From Rhizobiaceae bacterium (GTDB lineage Bacteria; Pseudomonadota; Alphaproteobacteria; Rhizobiales; Rhizobiaceae): a DNA stretch of 64,000 bases. Where the stretch lies: contig JARGOX010000003.1 of NCBI GenBank assembly GCA_029233925.1, positions 254,370-318,369 on the forward strand, in the 5' to 3' direction. The notes under the pieces are model-generated. The model saw nothing but the letters and a program-made list of their open reading frames with translations, searched no databases and had not been told where the DNA came from. Made by a program: the position numbers and the translations under genes. Below, piece after piece: positions 48,171 through 64,000 of this stretch (positions are counted from its first letter, which is position 1; each line of letters begins with the position of its first letter).

Positions 48171-48238
48171 AACATGATTATCGTCAAAGTCGGGTTCCTT
48201 TGCGATAGAGCAACCTGACCTGACGGCGACCACATCGG

Positions 48239-54200: not shown

Positions 54201-56650
54201 CGGCTTACCTTCAGTCGCCAGAGGGTACGGAAGATTGCATCAAGAGAAATTTGTGTATCGCTGACAAGAAATGCAATCGACAGGAACCAACGCCCACCGC
54301 GTTCCTTGAGCCGGTATACCATGTCACCGAAGAATTCCCGCTGCAGAGCTCTTGCCAGTCCTGTAAACAGTTCTCCCAGCAGATAGATGCCTGGCGCCGC
54401 AACCGCCAGCAGCGTCCACAGCCACGCATTGCCCGGCAGGACAATCCAACCGCCAACAAGGAACAGGAGCAAAGCAGGGGGAACAAGGCTGCGCCGCAGA
54501 TTATCAATGATCTTCCAGCGATCCAGTGCTGAAAGTGGGTTCTTTGCTTTCACACCTGCGCCCATGGGCACTTTTCCCGCAAGCCAGGGAATCAGCTGCC
54601 AGTCACCGCGCAACCACCGGTACAGGCGTTGTGCGTATTCAGAATAAGTGGAAGGAAAACTTTCATACAGGACGATATTGGTCACAAGTGCCGTGCGGCA
54701 GAACAGACCTTCAAACAGGTCATGGCTCAAAATGGCGTTTTCCGGCACGCGGTTCTGCAGGCAGCGTTGCACAGTTGCCACATCATAAATACCTTTGCCG
54801 ACGAATATCCCGGTCCCGAACATATCCTGGTACACATCCGACACGGCATTGGTATAGATATCAATCGCTGTATCGCCCGAACAAAGATGCGAAAACGGCG
54901 TTTCCAAACTGACGGACGGGAGAATTTCTATTCGTGGCTGCAGGATTGAATATCCAGAAGCAACACGTCCTGTATCCTCGTCATAAACTGCTGCATTCAA
55001 CGGATGCGCCAACGTTCCGACCATCTGGGCCGCAGTGCCCGGCGGCAACATCGTATCGGCATCCAGAGTGATAACAAAACGGCACTGCCGCAAGGCATCC
55101 GTCTCCCCGATGCAGATTGAAAAATCATCGGGTTGGCCACCAAGCACAACATTGTTGAACTGCTCAAGCTTGCCGCGTTTGCGCTCCCACCCCATCCAGC
55201 ATCCCTCCGCCGCATTGTAACGTCGCGAGCGATGCATCAAAAAGAACGGGCTTGCACTGGTCCCTCCATGGCGGGCATTGAGGTTGCGAATCTCCGCGAC
55301 GAGCGCCCCCTCGATTTCCCCGTCGCTGGGCAGTTTCTCCTGTGCTGCGTCCGATAAATCGCTCAAAAGAACATATTTCAGATTCGGATCGGGGTTTGCC
55401 AGCCAACGGGTTTCCAACAATTCGACAATACCGCGGATCGCCGCAGCATTCGAAATGATAAACGGCACAACGACGGCGGCAGAACAATTGTCCGGAATAC
55501 TTTTGCGAAAATCGAGCGCCGGAAGTGTCACTGGTGCTATTAAAAAGGGTATCAGCCAATGGACAACCGAAACACTCAACACAGATGCGGGAAGCAGCGA
55601 AAGAAGAATCCCGACAATCCAGGTCCAGACGGGTGCGTCGATCGAAGCCAGATGGATGATGGGAACGGCCAGGGCAAGCAGAACCACCAATAGGAGAGCC
55701 AGAACATAACCGATCTGTCGATAGGGTCGAAACCGGCGGCCAAGCCATTCACCAAGCGGCATTTTATAAGACGCACGCTTTTCAATCTCCGAACGCCCCT
55801 CCCCGATCAGCCAGTATCCCACATGATTTCTGGGTCCCTTCTGTGCACCATCCAGAGACAGTTCCAGCGCCAATCTCGCAATTTCGACATCCGTGAGGCT
55901 GGATCCATCGGCAAGATGCTCGACAATCTTGCGGTAGTTGTCACGTGTGCTGAAATTCATGTGCGCATAGACTTCAGCCGGATCATCCTTCAATGTTGCT
56001 TCAACAGGGCTGACCTGATCGAAGAAATCCTGCCAGGTAATGGCATGAACAGCACTCAGATTGGTGATGGCGCGGGCGACCAGATCGGCTGGCTCTCCAG
56101 CCACATCCTGACTACTTGGGACAAATGGCGGTTTAAGCTTTTCATCAAGCTGCAAAAAAGCGACCGCCAAAATCTCCAGATTTGCCAATCGGATCATCGA
56201 TGGCAAAGCCCAGAGCTCTGACGTCGACAGCAACGCAACCTGCTGGTAACCCCGCACATATTGCACGATATGGTGCATGGAAAGCTGCACACCTTCACGC
56301 GCTGACAGGGCACAAGCGATTTCAAATACCCGCGGTGTGGTGCCACCCAATGCATTTTCAACGACGGACAGTCGTTCAAAAAAATTCGGCGGAAGCCCCT
56401 CCGTCACCTGTTTTATGGCACGCATGACCTGATAGTCATTGTCCAGAAGCCAATCGGCCGCTCTTGAATGCGATGCATCCGGATCCCGGCAGTATTCGCG
56501 CAGCATAGCCAGCCAGTCGAGCAGTTTTTGACGATGCGTGTAAATATCCAGTTCCGGTCGCAAATCGGTCTTGATTGCGAGCGACTGCGCCAGCCTGCGG
56601 GCCGAACTTTTCAGCTCTGCATCCCGTCCAATACTGCTATCATCCATCAT
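48239..56650 (-). CDS. ndvB: Cyclic beta-1,2-glucan synthase (NdvB/ChvB family; GT84 plus GH94 domains)
   Basis: 2803 aa; N-terminal membrane glycosyltransferase with VVPFIISNAAAIRGIVELLETRWLANPD and TLDADTMLPPGTAAQMVGTLAHPLN; C-terminal phosphorylase-type GDWNDGMDRVGMNGQGESVWLAWF, NGGQYTHAAVWLGLAFA. Confidence 0.93.
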   Translation of the reverse strand: MMDDSSIGRDAELKSSARRLAQSLAIKTDLRPELDIYTHRQKLLDWLAMLREYCRDPDASHSRAADWLLDNDYQVMRAIKQVTEGLPPNFFERLSVVENALGGTTPRVFEIACALSAREGVQLSMHHIVQYVRGYQQVALLSTSELWALPSMIRLANLEILAVAFLQLDEKLKPPFVPSSQDVAGEPADLVARAITNLSAVHAITWQDFFDQVSPVEATLKDDPAEVYAHMNFSTRDNYRKIVEHLADGSSLTDVEIARLALELSLDGAQKGPRNHVGYWLIGEGRSEIEKRASYKMPLGEWLGRRFRPYRQIGYVLALLLVVLLALAVPIIHLASIDAPVWTWIVGILLSLLPASVLSVSVVHWLIPFLIAPVTLPALDFRKSIPDNCSAAVVVPFIISNAAAIRGIVELLETRWLANPDPNLKYVLLSDLSDAAQEKLPSDGEIEGALVAEIRNLNARHGGTSASPFFLMHRSRRYNAAEGCWMGWERKRGKLEQFNNVVLGGQPDDFSICIGETDALRQCRFVITLDADTMLPPGTAAQMVGTLAHPLNAAVYDEDTGRVASGYSILQPRIEILPSVSLETPFSHLCSGDTAIDIYTNAVSDVYQDMFGTGIFVGKGIYDVATVQRCLQNRVPENAILSHDLFEGLFCRTALVTNIVLYESFPSTYSEYAQRLYRWLRGDWQLIPWLAGKVPMGAGVKAKNPLSALDRWKIIDNLRRSLVPPALLLFLVGGWIVLPGNAWLWTLLAVAAPGIYLLGELFTGLARALQREFFGDMVYRLKERGGRWFLSIAFLVSDTQISLDAIFRTLWRLKVSRRHLLEWRTAADTAAGVSNLNPRMAAWRFMWPSSLFSVAVAIDLMLYDQAALLPAAPVLFLWFVAPEVAAWSGKPRLLRKEILDEDQSRFLLHVARRTWHYFETFAGPEDNWLPPDNYQEDPNGVVAHRTSPTNIGLYLVSALSARDFGFIGTADLASRARHVLDTLGRMETYRGHILNWYDTRNLQPLEPRYVSTVDSGNLAICLLALKNGCLESAVRPVTEQRLWNGLGCAFDLLLDALHQLSNSDEIETSEKVFRKHLSDAADSPEQWQAILDQLSNHFWPQFEKTIGAALKTADAPASQALSDLHVWLERFEHHLRAMRRDFDMFLPWLKILEDSPAGQENLIVGLLECLHPIAPTQDNQSRCQAMIDAAQRQEPADSPVSAWLEALKISIGDGLEAQQSLQADLVEIARRADGIAYGMNFVFLYDPEVRLFRIGFNLSSGHLDASCYDLLATEARLASFFAIAKLDVPMEHWFYLGRPITRLDGKPSILSWNGSMFEYLMPPLFLPGKRDTLLGESESTAVTYQRRYARDRGVPWGISESAFGVTDAEGNYQYRAFGAPGLGIRRGLTNDLVVAPYASALALCVWPGAAVENLQLLKDTGASGTYGFFDALDFTPDRAPRRGGFVPVKTYMAHHHGMTIAAISNVLGGDVLIRRVLQEKRLRAVEYLLQERIPWGLPTELGRVDEAWDTGAQTRDLPHLAPWIPSSAATVPQSHLIGNGRMSMRLSEAGGGGLSWNQMALTRWLPDPTRDAHGYWLYVHDVRSKLLWSVGRRPTDTASGSENTIFHQHKVEMLRREHGLTTHMEATVAPGDDVEIRHITVTNEQDVERVIEFTTYAEVVLAPPLDDERHPAFSKMFVGSTYLPDQDGLLFERRPRRPEMQYPVLLHKLLTDDPDIGISSYETERGNFIGRNGTMDSPRGLREGLSRSTGWTLDPIMALQIRMRLKPLETKEFSLLTIVANTRAAVLEVARKYQTPDLEWVFGEASRDFAREVSRLEIDPRRLPELQALSSLLVHPSSRLREPPASLEANRFGQPDLWRFGISGDLPILLMRIGDEEGSALLDLLVRAQQLWRHSGLQADIVMLRTGTAGYEEPVRDRILSILRDAHAYGFLGRSGGIHLLSESHMDADSRKAIEAAAHVVLHEGHEALAETLDRVLERRGVPPRFEPPVPARFETTVPLARPEGLEFDNGYGGFDTNKKEYVIHLEPGMHTPAPWCNVLANDTFGSIVTEAGLGFTWAINSGENRLTPWSNDPVMETPGEVLYLRDEATADVWSVSPAPRSHETACQISHGLGYTTWKQHSHALEQEMLAFVPVDDPVKIVRLRLQNTSGQSRRITATYYAEWLLGALGSTAKPHILCTYDPGLHAILANNGWNPEFAARLAFLAASKPPHSVSGDRQEFLGHEGGPDDPAALRHWDLGGGFPPGGDACAAYQVHLELIAGQTAEVIFVLGQGADRAETEALIRRWQQPDKVEMAFEALRQSWKIRLDTVQVTTPDPAFDLMVNQWLPYQTLSSRVMARAGFYQAGGAFGFRDQLQDSLALLHSEPARVRAHILRSASHQFEEGDALHWWHPPFGRGVRTRCSDDYLWLVYVTGRYIEATGDTSILEVDVPFLCGPELRPDQQDLYAHFATGETQSLFEHCARALDRMVVTGRHGLPLIGTGDWNDGMDRVGMNGQGESVWLAWFQIAIVGKFGSIADKHGDKSRADGWRLHAQNLKLAIDENAWDGAWFIRAFDDNGEAWGSQMAEECQIDSIAQSWSVLSGLPVEDRMRTAVASAAKRLVNDDKRLIKLLDPPFHHTMRDPGYIKAYPPGIRENGGQYTHAAVWLGLAFAGLDDGDTAWRLFDIINPIRRAAKKIEAERYAREPYVLTGDVSALESKEGLGGWSWYTGAAGWTWQLGVEGILGLKLVAGAIQVDPCLPEKWGGAQLTLKNTRGSINITIEDPEHVGKGVLWITADGKRLRGSSIRFPGKNRSRNVVVRLG

Positions 56651-57675
56651 CCGGCGGATCCAAGTGGCCGCCGCGCGCCCTTCGATTCAGCGCTTGAGTA
56701 AATATGATCTGCACCAACGACACCTGGCGTTCGCACCATCAGGACAGGAATATGCGAGCGGCTCAGAATGAACCGCGATACGTCTCCGGAAGGCACATCG
56801 CCATATCCGCTATGACCGTGAGATGACATCACAAGAAGATCAGCCGACTGAACAATGATCGCCTCGGCCAGAAGACGCCGCACATCTCCATTCTTGAGAA
56901 TCACAGTACGAACGACCACGTCACAATTGGCCAGGGATTGCCGTATCCGATCAAGATATTTCCGTGCGGCCAGATCATTTCGTTGCGACAATTGCCTGTA
57001 AAGTTCGACATCCTCAGGTTCAAGAGCCACATTCCGCAGGAATTCCGGTGTTGGTGTCGCGTGGATCAGGATCAGTTCGGCATTCTGATGGACCGCAATC
57101 CGCACGGCCGTGGAAATTGCACTTTCCGAACGCGGGGACCCGTCCAGAGAAACCAGTATTCGGCGGTAGATTGCCTCTTCCACCTCGGGAACGGCCGAAG
57201 GAACAAGCAGGATGGAACTGGCGGAATTCTCCAACACACCTCGGGCCGTTTCTCCGATATGATCCGCAACCAGATCATCATTGCTGCACAGCGCTGTAAT
57301 ATCGCTCACCCGGCCAGCGGTACATTCGCCTATCTGATCGGCAGATCGACCTTCCAGCAATTTGACTGCGATTTTATCTGCTTCATCACCGAACCGTTTC
57401 GCCAGCCGGGAAACATACATATGCGCTTGCCTTTTGCGAATATCCCACTCCACCGGATCGAATGGTGCATGTGATTTTCCGGGCTCAACGACGTGAAGCA
57501 AAGACAGTGCGCCACCGAGCGCCTGTGCTATTGCGCGCGCATGGGGAACGACCCGGGCCGAAACCGACGACGTGTCGACACAGGCAAAAACCCGCAGCGT
57601 TTGGTTGCTCGCAACTCTGATCGGAACAGATGGCTTCTCGCAAACAGTTTGTTTTGCTGTGGAACTCTTCGACAT
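56647..57675 (-). CDS. Tandem universal stress protein (two UspA domains)
   Basis: 342 aa; VFACVDTSSVSARVVPHARAIAQALGGALSLLHVVEPG... and ILVSLDGSPRSESAISTAVRIAVHQNAELILIHATP...DLLVMSSHGHSGYGDVPSGDVSRFILSRSHIPVLMVR; start ATG 57675. Confidence 0.9.
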   Translation of the reverse strand: MSKSSTAKQTVCEKPSVPIRVASNQTLRVFACVDTSSVSARVVPHARAIAQALGGALSLLHVVEPGKSHAPFDPVEWDIRKRQAHMYVSRLAKRFGDEADKIAVKLLEGRSADQIGECTAGRVSDITALCSNDDLVADHIGETARGVLENSASSILLVPSAVPEVEEAIYRRILVSLDGSPRSESAISTAVRIAVHQNAELILIHATPTPEFLRNVALEPEDVELYRQLSQRNDLAARKYLDRIRQSLANCDVVVRTVILKNGDVRRLLAEAIIVQSADLLVMSSHGHSGYGDVPSGDVSRFILSRSHIPVLMVRTPGVVGADHIYSSAESKGARRPLGSAG

Positions 57676-57840: not shown

Positions 57841-57854
57841 TTGACATCGATCAA
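57841..57854. promoter_or_regulatory. FNR/FixK-type box upstream of the usp-ndvB operon
   Basis: TTGAC-ATCG-ATCAA, full match to TTGAY-N4-RTCAA; minus-strand GATACT (-10-like) at 57814-57819 puts box centre about -41. Confidence 0.6.
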
Positions 57855-57956: not shown

Positions 57957-58883
57957 TCATGACCCGCCATCATCGACAAACAGGGCTTCAACGTCCTTGC
58001 GTCGGCACAATTGTGTTCCCGATGTCATGACCGCGGCGGCACCAGCGGCAACGCCGTAGCGAAATGCATGGGTGATGGGATGGCCTGTGGCCAGCGAAAA
58101 GACCATGGCACCGACAAAACTGTCGCCTGCCCCGACGGCGGAATGCACCCTGACATGCCTTGTCGGTAGTCGTATGACACCGTCCCTGTTGGCCAGAAAG
58201 GCACCTTCCACTCCCATCGATACAGCCACGTGGTCAGCACCGCCGGACTTTACAATATCAAGTGCCGCCTGCCTGGCGCCATCTTCGTCCAATTTGGTTC
58301 CCGAAAGCTTTTCCAGCTCCCCAAGGCTGGGTTTGACCAGAAAAACATGGGACATTGAAAGCGTTTCACGCAGGGCAGGCCCCGATGTGTCGAGGATGAA
58401 ACGAATGTTTTTCCGCGCCGCAATCTGGGCAATTTTCGCATAGGTGTCATCAGGCAAGCCGCGTGGCAGACTGCCACTTGCAACAATATAGTCTCCTTCA
58501 AATTGTTCGATATGGGCGATCGCCTTGGCCAGCTCACCCACATCGACCAATGGCCCCTCCGGCACAAACCTGTATTCAAAGCCGGTCTGTTGTTCGTGAA
58601 CCATGTAGGCAATGCGGGTCGGCTCTGCGATCTGCACCCGGTGCCCATTGATGGACGTCTGCTTCAGGCCCTCCTCAAGCAAGGCACCGGTCGCACCGCC
58701 CGACAGAAAAACCGTTTCCACCGAGCCACCAAGTTCGACAATGACACGGGCAACATTGATACCGCCGCCTCCGGGATAGCACTTCTGGTCCCGCGTGCGG
58801 ATTTTCCGTGTTGGCTGCACGATGTCCGTTTCTGACGAGACATCAACTGCAGGATTGAGTGCAATGGTAAGAATACCATTCAT
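57957..58883 (-). CDS. PfkB-family sugar kinase (6-phosphofructokinase II / 1-phosphofructokinase-like)
   Basis: 308 aa; MNGILTIALNPAVDVSSETD...YPGGGGINVARVIVELGGSVETVFLSGGATG...HSAVGAGDSFVGAMVFSLATG. Confidence 0.88.
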   Translation of the reverse strand: MNGILTIALNPAVDVSSETDIVQPTRKIRTRDQKCYPGGGGINVARVIVELGGSVETVFLSGGATGALLEEGLKQTSINGHRVQIAEPTRIAYMVHEQQTGFEYRFVPEGPLVDVGELAKAIAHIEQFEGDYIVASGSLPRGLPDDTYAKIAQIAARKNIRFILDTSGPALRETLSMSHVFLVKPSLGELEKLSGTKLDEDGARQAALDIVKSGGADHVAVSMGVEGAFLANRDGVIRLPTRHVRVHSAVGAGDSFVGAMVFSLATGHPITHAFRYGVAAGAAAVMTSGTQLCRRKDVEALFVDDGGS

Positions 58884-58985
58884 TGTGACACCTCAAAATG
58901 TTTGGTTCGAACTGATAGTATCATTGCCGACCAATGCAGGCCTAATCTTCCTCACTCAATTCTACAATCCGGGTGAAATGTTCAT

Positions 58986-58999
58986 TTGACCCGTATCAA
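58986..58999. promoter_or_regulatory. FNR/FixK-type box in the divergent pfkB / ABC-efflux intergenic region
   Basis: TTGAC-CCGT-ATCAA; -10-like TATCTT (59022-59027, +) and TAGAAT (58959-58964, -) lie at spacings giving about -41 in both directions. Confidence 0.62.
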
Positions 59000-59052
59000 T
59001 GCGGGGGTGCTTGCTACAGTCTATCTTTAGAAGAACATGGAAGGCACGATTG

Positions 59053-59760
59053 ATGAGCAAACCGGTTTTCCAGACACATGATCTGACAAAGATTTATCGT
59101 ACCGGCGATGTCGAGGTCCGGGCTCTCAATGGCGTTGATGTCACGCTCTATGAAGGCGAAATGACTGTTCTTCTGGGGCCATCGGGAAGCGGCAAGTCGA
59201 CCTTTCTCAACATTGTCGGCGGGCTTGATCGGGCAACCAGCGGCACAGTGCGTTTCAAGGATATGGAATTGACGTCTTGCAGCGAACGTCAGTTGACCCA
59301 ATATCGTCGCAACCATGTCGGGTTTGTATTTCAGTTCTACAATCTTATTCCCAGCCTCACCGCTTGGGAAAATGTCGCCATGGTAACCGAGATTGCCCGC
59401 GCGCCTATGACACCGGATGAAGCGCTGGCCATGGTCGGTCTGGAAAATCGCCAGACGCATTTTCCAGCGCAGATGTCCGGTGGTGAACAGCAGCGGGTTG
59501 CCATCGCGCGTGCCATTGCCAAACGGCCGGAAGTCCTGCTTTGCGACGAACCAACCGGTGCACTGGATTCCAAGACCGGTATTCTGGTTCTGGAGGCACT
59601 GGACAAGATCAACAGGGAACTGGGCACCACCACTGCAATCATCACCCACAATGCAGGCATTCAGGCGATCGCGCACCGTGTCGTGTCTTTCATTGATGGC
59701 AAAATTTCACAGACCCACGCCAATGAAATCCGCATCCAGCCAGCTGAAGTGGTCTGGTAA
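59053..59760 (+). CDS. ABC transporter ATP-binding protein (LolD/MacB/FtsE type)
   Basis: [38 protein letters not shown]...[36 protein letters not shown]; start ATG 59053. Confidence 0.92.
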
Positions 59761-59762
59761 CC

Positions 59763-62126
59763 ATGGCTATGCTTGACTTGAAGCTGATGAGAGATCTTGC
59801 CCGCCTATGGGCCCAGGGGCTGGCCATAGCGCTCGTCATGGCCTGCGGCGTCAGCACCATCATCATTTCTGTCGGCGCTTACCGTTCGCTTGAAGAAACC
59901 CAATCCGCATTTTATGAGCGCTATCGGTTCGGCACCGTTTTTGCCTCGGCGGTGCGCGCGCCCCGGCACCTGAAATCGCGAATAGAACATATTGCTGGCG
60001 TCACCTCCGCCGAGCTTCGCATTGTGCAGCCGGTGCTCATTGATGTGGCCGGAATGCGTGAACCGGCATCGGGACTGGCCGTTTCCGTGCCGGATTTTGA
60101 AGAAGCATCCGTCAATCGGCTATATCTGAGATACGGCAGGCTGCCCGAAGAGAGCCGCGAAAACGAAGTTGCCGTTGTCGAAACATTCGCCGATGCCCAT
60201 GGTTTTCGTCTGGGTGATTCATTTGACGCCATCATGAATGGCCGCAAGCAAAGATTGCTGATTGTCGGCGTCGTTCTTTCCCCTGAATTCATCTATGCAA
60301 TCGGCCCGGGCGACATGGTACCCGATCCACGACGATTTGGCGTTTTCTTCATGTCTCTCAAGAAACTTTCAGGCCTGTTCGACCTGGAAGGCGCCTTCAA
60401 CAGTCTCAGCCTGACAACCTTGAGAAACGCCGACACCAGAATCATCGTCGATGCGGTTGACGATATTCTCAAACCCTATGGCGGCAGCGGCGCCTATGAC
60501 CGCAAAGACCAGGTTTCCCATGCATTTCTTGATTCCGAGTTGGATCAGCTTCGCGCCATGTCATCAGTCATCCCACCCATATTTCTTCTGGTGGCCGCCT
60601 TTCTCGTCAATATGATCCTGTCGCGTCTGATCGCCCTTGAGCGCGAACAGATCGGCCTCCTCAAGGCGTTGGGTTATGGCAATGTCGCCATCGGCGGGCA
60701 TTTTGCCAAGCTTGTCGTTGTCATCGCGCTGGTCGGACTGCTCATCGGTTCGCTTTCCGGTTTCTGGCTCGGCAGGGGGCTGACACGACTCTATGCGACC
60801 TTTTATTCCTTTCCATTTCTCATCTTTCGACACAGCATTGATCTCTACCTGCTGGCAGGTGGCGTGACCGTGGCCGCGGCTCTGGCGGGCGCGGCCAAAG
60901 CGATCTGGACAGTTGTAATCCTGCCGCCCGCCGTTGCCATGCGCCCGCCGGCACCAACGACCTATCGCAGTTTTTTTGTGAGCCAACTGCAAAGGCTGGG
61001 CCTCTTTTCGCAATTGTCCATCATGGCCTTTCGGCATCTCATCCGATGGCCGGTCAGGTCCCTGCTGACAACACTGGGTACATCCCTCTCCGTCGCACTC
61101 TTGATAACCTCACTTTTCTCCTATGATTCCATCGACTTCATGATCGATGCCATCTTTTTCCGAGCCGACCGACAGGACGCATCCATGACCTTCGTGTCCG
61201 ATCAGGGTCTGGATGCCATTTCTGCGGTTGCCTCCATGCCGGGGATCCTGCGGGTGGAACCCTTCCGACAAACCGCCGTGACGCTTCGCAACACGCACCG
61301 CGAAAAGCGCATGGCAATTGTCGGCCTTGCGGAAGATACCGATTTGTCCCGCGTCCTGGACCTGGATCTGAACCCGGTGTCTCCAACATCATCCGGGGTC
61401 ATTTTGTCGGAAAGGGTGGCCGAGATACTCCATTTGAAGCCCGGTATGCAGGTCGAAGTGGAACTTCTGGAAAGAGACAAACGCACAGCGTCCCTGACCG
61501 TTACCGGACTGGCGCAAAGTTATGTCGGCTTGACCGCCTACATGCGCGATGATGCCCTTGATCGCTTGCTGCGTGACGGACGTCGCATATCGGGCGTGCG
61601 CGTCTCGATAGACAGCAATGAACTGGAAGGCCTATACGATTCGATCAAGCAAACCCCCATGGTGGCTTCCATTGCCCTGCAGGGTATCTCGCGCGTCCGC
61701 CTTCGTGAAACGGTAGAAGAAAATATAACCACCATGACGGCGATCTATGTGATTCTGGCCATCATCATTACATTTGGCGTTATCTACAATTCCGCCCGCA
61801 TTCAGCTTTCCGAACGCGCCCGCGAGCTTGCCAGCCTCAGGGTATTCGGATTTACCCGGAGCGAAGTCTCAAGCGTCCTGATGATCGAACTTGGTTTGAT
61901 CGTTCTGTTTGCGCAGCCCCTGGGTTGGATTGTGGGGTATCTTTTGTCCTGGAGCGTGGTGCAGGGATTTGAAAACGATATTTTCCGAATACCTCTGATC
62001 ATCAAGATTGCAACCTATGCCCTGGCCAGCCTGATTGTAACAGGCGCTGCGCTCTTTTCAGCGTTGATTGTCAGGCGCCGTGTCGACCGGCTTGATCTGA
62101 TCCGAGTCTTGAAAACGAGGGAGTGA
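59763..62126 (+). CDS. FtsX-family ABC transporter permease
   Basis: 787 aa; N-terminal TM plus large periplasmic domain, two FtsX-type TM blocks (ALEREQIGLLKALGYGNVAIGGHFAKLVVVIALVG; SERARELASLRVFGFTRSEVSSVLMIELGLIV). Confidence 0.9.
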   Translation: MAMLDLKLMRDLARLWAQGLAIALVMACGVSTIIISVGAYRSLEETQSAFYERYRFGTVFASAVRAPRHLKSRIEHIAGVTSAELRIVQPVLIDVAGMREPASGLAVSVPDFEEASVNRLYLRYGRLPEESRENEVAVVETFADAHGFRLGDSFDAIMNGRKQRLLIVGVVLSPEFIYAIGPGDMVPDPRRFGVFFMSLKKLSGLFDLEGAFNSLSLTTLRNADTRIIVDAVDDILKPYGGSGAYDRKDQVSHAFLDSELDQLRAMSSVIPPIFLLVAAFLVNMILSRLIALEREQIGLLKALGYGNVAIGGHFAKLVVVIALVGLLIGSLSGFWLGRGLTRLYATFYSFPFLIFRHSIDLYLLAGGVTVAAALAGAAKAIWTVVILPPAVAMRPPAPTTYRSFFVSQLQRLGLFSQLSIMAFRHLIRWPVRSLLTTLGTSLSVALLITSLFSYDSIDFMIDAIFFRADRQDASMTFVSDQGLDAISAVASMPGILRVEPFRQTAVTLRNTHREKRMAIVGLAEDTDLSRVLDLDLNPVSPTSSGVILSERVAEILHLKPGMQVEVELLERDKRTASLTVTGLAQSYVGLTAYMRDDALDRLLRDGRRISGVRVSIDSNELEGLYDSIKQTPMVASIALQGISRVRLRETVEENITTMTAIYVILAIIITFGVIYNSARIQLSERARELASLRVFGFTRSEVSSVLMIELGLIVLFAQPLGWIVGYLLSWSVVQGFENDIFRIPLIIKIATYALASLIVTGAALFSALIVRRRVDRLDLIRVLKTRE

Positions 62127-62131
62127 AGAAC

Positions 62132-63340
62132 ATGCGTATCTGGATCAAACGTTTCGGATTGCTGGTCCTGGTGCTGGCCGTTGCCGCAGGTTTCTATCTG
62201 GCCATGCGGGAACAGCCTGTCCCGGTGGATGTTGCCATCATCAAATCCGGTGAGATGAAGGTCACCATAGATGAAGAGGGGACGACACGGGTCAGGGATG
62301 TCTATGCCGTATCATCGCCCATCGATGGGCACCTTGATCGCACCACGCTGGATGAAGGGTACCTGGTCAAGGCGCACGAAACGATCATCGCATCCATCCA
62401 TCCGCTCGATCCGCCGTTCCTCAATCAACGCACGAGGGCCGAATTGCGCGCCGCGGCGGATGCCGCACGTTCCGCCATTGCCTTGGCACGGGTCGAGCAG
62501 ACACGCGCCCAGACCGCCTATGAACTCGCAGCATCAAACTATTCCAGAGCTGCCCAGCTCGCAGAAACAAAGACCATTTCAACCAGTCAGCTGGAACATG
62601 CCTATAGTGAGCAGCAACTCGCAGAAGCACAAATCGCCAGCACAAAGGCGACAATAGAACTGCGCAAGGCCGAGCTTGCCAGCGCGCAAGCGCGTTTACA
62701 ACAACCCGGCGATGTCAATATCCGCACATCTGAAGGCGATTGCTGCGTGCAGATCACCGCTCCTATTGACGGCGTCATCCTCAAGGTTCTGACACGCAGC
62801 GAACAGGCTGTCCTGTCGGGAACACCGATTGCCGAAATCGGCGACCCCGAGAACCTGGAGATCATTGTCGACCTTCTGTCGAGTGATGCGGCAAAGATCA
62901 GCAAGGGTGCAAAAGTCGCAATCACGGAATGGGGCGGAGATGAGGATTTCGAAGGCGTGGTGCGCCGGATCGAACCGGCCGCTTTCACCAAGGTTTCGTC
63001 CCTGGGTATCGAGGAGCAACGCGTCAATATTGTGATCGACCCGGCCCTGGTGCCGACAGGTCTCGGCCACAACTATCGTGTCCTGGCAAAAATCGAAATA
63101 TGGGAAAAGGACAACACCATAAGCGTGCCGATCAGTGCACTGTTCCGATCAGGCGGCAAATGGACCGTTTTCGTTGTGGAAGACAACAAGGCCCATTTGC
63201 GCCAGATCACCATAGGCAGATTGAACAGCAAACATGCGGAGGTCCTGAACGGGCTGAAGCAAGATGAAATCGTGGTGCTTTATCCCAATGATCTTCTGGA
63301 AGACGGCAGCCTGGTGGAAGAAAGACAGGCGACGCGATAG
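62132..63340 (+). CDS. HlyD/RND-type efflux periplasmic adaptor
   Basis: N-terminal TM anchor, barrel-sandwich/coiled-coil (RVEQTRAQTAYELAASNYSRAAQLAETKTISTSQLEHAYSEQQLAEAQIASTKATIELRKAELASAQARL); ATG 62132 or GTG 62123. Confidence 0.9.
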   Translation: MRIWIKRFGLLVLVLAVAAGFYLAMREQPVPVDVAIIKSGEMKVTIDEEGTTRVRDVYAVSSPIDGHLDRTTLDEGYLVKAHETIIASIHPLDPPFLNQRTRAELRAAADAARSAIALARVEQTRAQTAYELAASNYSRAAQLAETKTISTSQLEHAYSEQQLAEAQIASTKATIELRKAELASAQARLQQPGDVNIRTSEGDCCVQITAPIDGVILKVLTRSEQAVLSGTPIAEIGDPENLEIIVDLLSSDAAKISKGAKVAITEWGGDEDFEGVVRRIEPAAFTKVSSLGIEEQRVNIVIDPALVPTGLGHNYRVLAKIEIWEKDNTISVPISALFRSGGKWTVFVVEDNKAHLRQITIGRLNSKHAEVLNGLKQDEIVVLYPNDLLEDGSLVEERQATR

Positions 63341-63845: not shown

Positions 63846-63884
63846 AAGTGGTTTCAGGCCGTTGAATATTGCGAGGTTACGCCC

Positions 63885-64000
63885 TTTTCGGATCTCGGCT
63901 TTTCACGACGCTCGATTTATCCGAAAACCGGTTCCCACTTTTCGAATCTCGGCTTTTCACGACGCTCGATTTATCCGAAAACCGGTTCCCACTTTTCGGA
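63885..64000. repeat. 54-bp tandem repeat, two copies plus start of a third, truncated by window edge
   Basis: TTTTCGGATCTCGGCTTTTCACGACGCTCGATTTATCCGAAAACCGGTTCCCAC at 63885 and again at 63939 (one substitution); third copy starts at 63993. TCCGAAAA/TTTTCGGA forms a hairpin. Confidence 0.9.

Follow-up and report, generated by a model that had tools for sequence, protein, structure and literature searches.

A single FNR/FixK box that may serve both an ABC-HlyD exporter operon and the divergent pfkB gene in a Rhizobiaceae bacterium

In a 64,000-nucleotide stretch of DNA from a Rhizobiaceae bacterium (called the window below), one 14-mer of the FNR/FixK type lies between a pfkB gene and an exporter operon that are directed away from each other, and the question arises whether this single site can activate transcription in both directions from class II distance. 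On the plus strand the exporter genes encode an ABC exporter ATPase (59053-59760, Pfam ABC_tran), an FtsX/MacB-type permease of 787 amino acids (59763-62126, Pfam FtsX and MacB_PCD) and a HlyD-family periplasmic adaptor (62123-63340, Pfam HlyD_3 / HlyD_D23). On the minus strand, pfkB (57957-58883, Pfam PfkB E=1.4e-48) encodes a PfkB-family sugar kinase and is followed by usp (56647-57675, start ATG 57675), which encodes a universal stress protein with two Usp stretches. The ATPase gene starts with ATG 59053, preceded by GGAAGG, and pfkB with ATG 58883, preceded by GAGGTG (58894-58889, minus). In addition, a 54-base tandem repeat of 2.1 copies (63884-63998) reaches the end of the window and is followed in the genome sequence by a run of N, which suggests that the repeat array is longer and unassembled past this point.

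The box and the regulon of the host

The box TTGACCCGTATCAA occupies 58986-58999 with no strand assigned (centre 58992.5), and it is accompanied on the plus strand by TATCTT (59022-59027) and on the minus strand by TAGAAT (58959-58964); reading of the sequence confirms all three elements as they were originally predicted. With the spacing of TATCTT, the exporter start is predicted at 59034 and the box centre then lies at -41.5, in agreement with the position near -41 that had been claimed for it. With the spacing of TAGAAT, the pfkB start is predicted at 58952 and the box lies at -40.5, so that the hexamer is where it was said to be while the claim that it does the same for pfkB is one base off. 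The two predicted start sites are separated by 82 bp, and the box stands at -67 from the start codon on the ATPase side and at -116 on the pfkB side. The pfkB leader also contains a palindrome, CTGATAGTATCAT (58912-58924), which is the perfect ATGATAGCATCAT in the closest genome, G002, and which could be the site of another regulator or a relic of a box on the ppsA side.

In this rhizobial genome the motif marks a working regulon. In the 64-kb window two perfect TTGAYN4RTCAA sites are present (58986 and 57841) versus 0.33 expected, and genome-wide there are 57 strict boxes versus 9 for the reversed-pattern control. Such boxes precede ccoN, the 5-aminolevulinate synthase gene (hemA), hemN/fnrL and usp genes, with hemN being divergent from an fnrL-type gene and the box lying between the two. 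The second perfect box of the window, TTGACATCGATCAA (57841-57854, no strand assigned), lies upstream of usp, and this box between pfkB and usp is also kept in G002, G003, G004 and G005. Elsewhere in the window a one-mismatch box, ATGATTATCGTCAA (48174-48187), is found just past the point where the cyclic glucan synthase gene ends, and the corresponding position in G002 (L054:6247) holds a perfect box, TTGATGACAATCAA.

The host has three Crp-family proteins, namely an FnrL-type protein with an N-terminal Cys-X2-Cys-X7-Cys, a FixK-type protein and a third one with a different recognition helix, where the names FnrL and FixK denote best NCBIfam matches, below the curated cut-offs of the models, together with sequence features. 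The recognition helices of the FnrL-type and FixK-type regulators read ETVSR and ETISR, respectively, and the box sequence fits either of the two as the activator without distinguishing them. Both the TTGAY-N4-RTCAA box and the FNR/FixK activators of the host are thereby present for a class II promoter on the exporter side. The FixK-type regulator gene is located 9 kb past the right-hand end of the window, in what appears to be a low-oxygen stress cluster just to the right of it (L049:2589-11872, contig G000:C13), with two usp genes, an M50 protease with CBS domains, a host-attachment protein, a PAS hybrid histidine kinase, a response regulator and two further perfect boxes. The hybrid kinase (L049:8629-10221) was considered as FixL and was not adopted as such, having R at the position that we take to be the haem-binding histidine of FixL. 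On another contig of the host (G000:C11), two boxes 491 bases apart (L100:1550 and L100:2041) have TATAAT and TAGAAT, respectively, at the exact class II spacing, and the gene after the box at L100:2041 matches no NCBIfam family.

The exporter side in relatives

The ATPase and permease orthologues came from the order and from named genome contigs, mostly of Rhizobiaceae, Phyllobacteriaceae and other Hyphomicrobiales. Within 500 bases upstream of the ATPase gene, a strict box occurs in 56 of the 98 distinct regions, while the reversed motif occurs in none of the 98. Of these boxes, 34 start at -70 to -58 before the ATPase start codon, with the mode at -68 and -67. When 47 of the upstream regions were aligned on the box alone, without reference to promoter elements, two columns stood out, with G at -33 in 41/47 and A at -11 in 36/47, and these fall exactly where a box at -41.5 in class II position predicts them. 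In the window, the G is at 59001, within the -35 region of the exporter promoter (58999-59004, plus strand), and the A has the same offset as in the -10 element TATCTT. Note that the 47 aligned sequences are related, so that binomial p-values overstate the evidence, and that in this GC-rich group the counting of TATAAT matches separated real -10 elements poorly, whereas the conservation of box-anchored columns succeeded. A chance palindrome is hardly tenable as an explanation of the 14-mer: the motif is short, as such an explanation would have it, but the contrast of 56 with 0 among the 98 regions and the fixed spacing of the box from both the gene and the -10 element argue against it.

A known operon is comparable. 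In B. diazoefficiens, the ABC-permease-HlyD operon bll7988-bll7987-bll7986 is FixK2-dependent, with a box that starts at -66 and with expression of the three genes 33-, 17- and 6-fold lower in the deletion mutant (PMC9104804). The ATPase, permease and HlyD adaptor come there in the same order and the box at -66 is to be compared with -67 here, while the box sequence differs (CTGATCTAAATCAA) and no divergent pfkB is described. As three candidate loci for Bradyrhizobium relatives (L244-L246) have no strict box before the ATPase gene, the putative link between the two operons is drawn from the order of the genes and the place of the box. Taken together, the dozens of relatives, the FnrL/FixK genes of the host and the published FixK2-dependent operon strongly support the predicted activation of the exporter operon by an FNR/FixK-family protein from -41.5, and by analogy with bll7988-bll7986 this activator would induce the exporter at low oxygen.

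The pfkB side and the probable history of ppsA

The pfkB half is weaker than the exporter half. The hexamer TAGAAT is a 5/6 match to TATAAT at class II distance and is identical at all six positions in G002, and the position of the box at -40.5 from the predicted start is within the range of -40.5 to -42.5 of the mapped alphaproteobacterial cases, i.e., the FnrN/FixK class II promoters of Sphingopyxis granuli (PMC7713065). That species has the same consensus, TTGA(C/T)N4(G/A)TCAA (PMC7713065), in front of other genes, and its start sites are mapped whereas those considered here are predicted. Among the 50 genomic boxes whose flanks were read, the present one is the only box that is flanked on each side by a TAnnnT hexamer at class II spacing. 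No G is found at -33 on the pfkB side. In the 47 exporter relatives, which have different divergent genes, the mirror positions are not conserved, and a general bidirectional signal around the box was sought in the relatives and not found. The footprint expected in the intergenic region of relatives is thus present for the box on the exporter side, while the pfkB-side elements are kept only in G002. The arrangement of exporter, box and pfkB occurs in only two genomes, the host and G002, and with a four-fold-site divergence of 15-22% these are too close to prove selection on six bases. Boxes near pfkB are uncommon in the family (5/36 loci).

The gene order in other members of the genus suggests how this arrangement arose. 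G003 and G004 have, in this order, the exporter, two boxes, ppsA, pfkB, a box and usp, whereas G005, which is without the exporter, has ppsA, pfkB, a box, usp and cyclic glucan synthase. Other parts of the family also have ppsA next to pfkB, and in G695 (L248) a box precedes ppsA; moreover, ppsA is FixK2-dependent in B. diazoefficiens (PMC9104804). The host and G002 each carry a single ppsA, which is located on a different contig and is separated by about 900 bases from the closest strict box upstream of it. The simplest history would be that ppsA left the locus and pfkB then faced the exporter across the exporter's box, where the direction of change is taken from how widespread the ppsA-pfkB adjacency is and not from a tree. 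Since ppsA-pfkB behind an FNR box of its own, beside the box of the exporter, is the likely ancestral layout, pfkB and the exporter have probably long been co-regulated at low oxygen, and the single box is the new part. The co-regulation of the exporter and the kinase that was originally predicted gains support from this two-box layout, with the sharing of one box being only plausible.

Possible activation of both sides and the alternative readings

Based on these data, we propose the following. The 14-mer would be the site of an FNR/FixK-family activator responding to low oxygen, and its original and main role would be the class II activation of the exporter operon from -41.5. Elsewhere in the genus, ppsA separates the exporter operon from pfkB and heads ppsA-pfkB behind its own FNR box. 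With ppsA now at another locus, pfkB is at class II distance from the remaining box in the host and its closest relative, and most likely pfkB is also activated through this box, at about -40.5 from the predicted start. We hold with moderate confidence that the exporter-activating 14-mer serves both genes in this way, and that the single box now drives both directions, pfkB included, is plausible from the sequence. As for the notion that one dimer activates the two directions, its exporter part is strongly supported, while simultaneous activation is doubtful because the predicted starts are only 82 bp apart, which poses a steric problem; it is more likely that RNA polymerase is recruited to either side at any one moment and that the two promoters are occupied alternately.

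A less probable but still considerable alternative is that the box serves the exporter only, with pfkB, once split from ppsA, using an unrelated promoter or being weakly transcribed, and with TAGAAT present by chance. This would be consistent with the directional signals, the G at -33 and the A of the -10 element, which across the relatives are on the exporter side only, and with the offset of -40.5 on the pfkB side. Chance alone would give a 5/6 match to TATAAT at class II spacing, counting any of three offsets, at 0.6% of genome positions and at 2.5% for the local composition, and the latter value also leaves room for coincidence. Against it are the unchanged TAGAAT in G002, the presence of TAGAAT at class II spacing beside another box of this genome (L100:2041) and the probably ancestral FNR control of pfkB via ppsA in the genus. 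Moreover, no other sigma-70-type promoter was found in 58700-59300, which is weak evidence as the same scan also misses the exporter promoter. Far less probable is that the bound box represses or excludes pfkB, with the polymerase held at the exporter promoter blocking it. Two polymerases at starts 82 bp apart would indeed overlap, but several relatives have a box at close spacing upstream of ppsA-pfkB, and in B. diazoefficiens microoxic conditions induce a kinase of the 1-phosphofructokinase family (PMC6515984), both of which speak against exclusion.

The reading that we prefer, activation of both the exporter operon and pfkB, has precedents. In B. diazoefficiens the listed motifs of bll4634/blr4635, phaC2/blr6074 and hemN2/bsr7087 are reverse complements within each pair, and all of these genes are FixK2-dependent (Table 2 of PMC9104804). 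By our own reading, each such pair apparently has one FixK2 box between divergent genes, with uneven motif-to-start-codon distances of -75/-150, -81/-143 and -140/-115, as compared with -67 and -116 here. In Sphingopyxis the authors suggest that the ccoN box may also serve the divergent ompW (PMC7713065), and promoters firing both ways are known more generally (PMC10268837). FixK boxes common to divergent genes are already documented, and the present locus joins them.

More tentatively, the relocation of ppsA may have removed a two-box divergent region, and a class II FNR site that had worked in one direction may thereby have come to work in two, so that the choice made by the polymerase at a single dimer would set the exporter-to-kinase ratio at low oxygen. 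The genomes with two boxes and ppsA and those with one box and no ppsA at the locus form a natural before-and-after pair for how divergent promoters come to share an activator. The conservation of the exporter box, in turn, ties the ABC-FtsX-HlyD exporter, which is poorly understood, to the low-oxygen regulon of rhizobia in dozens of genomes.
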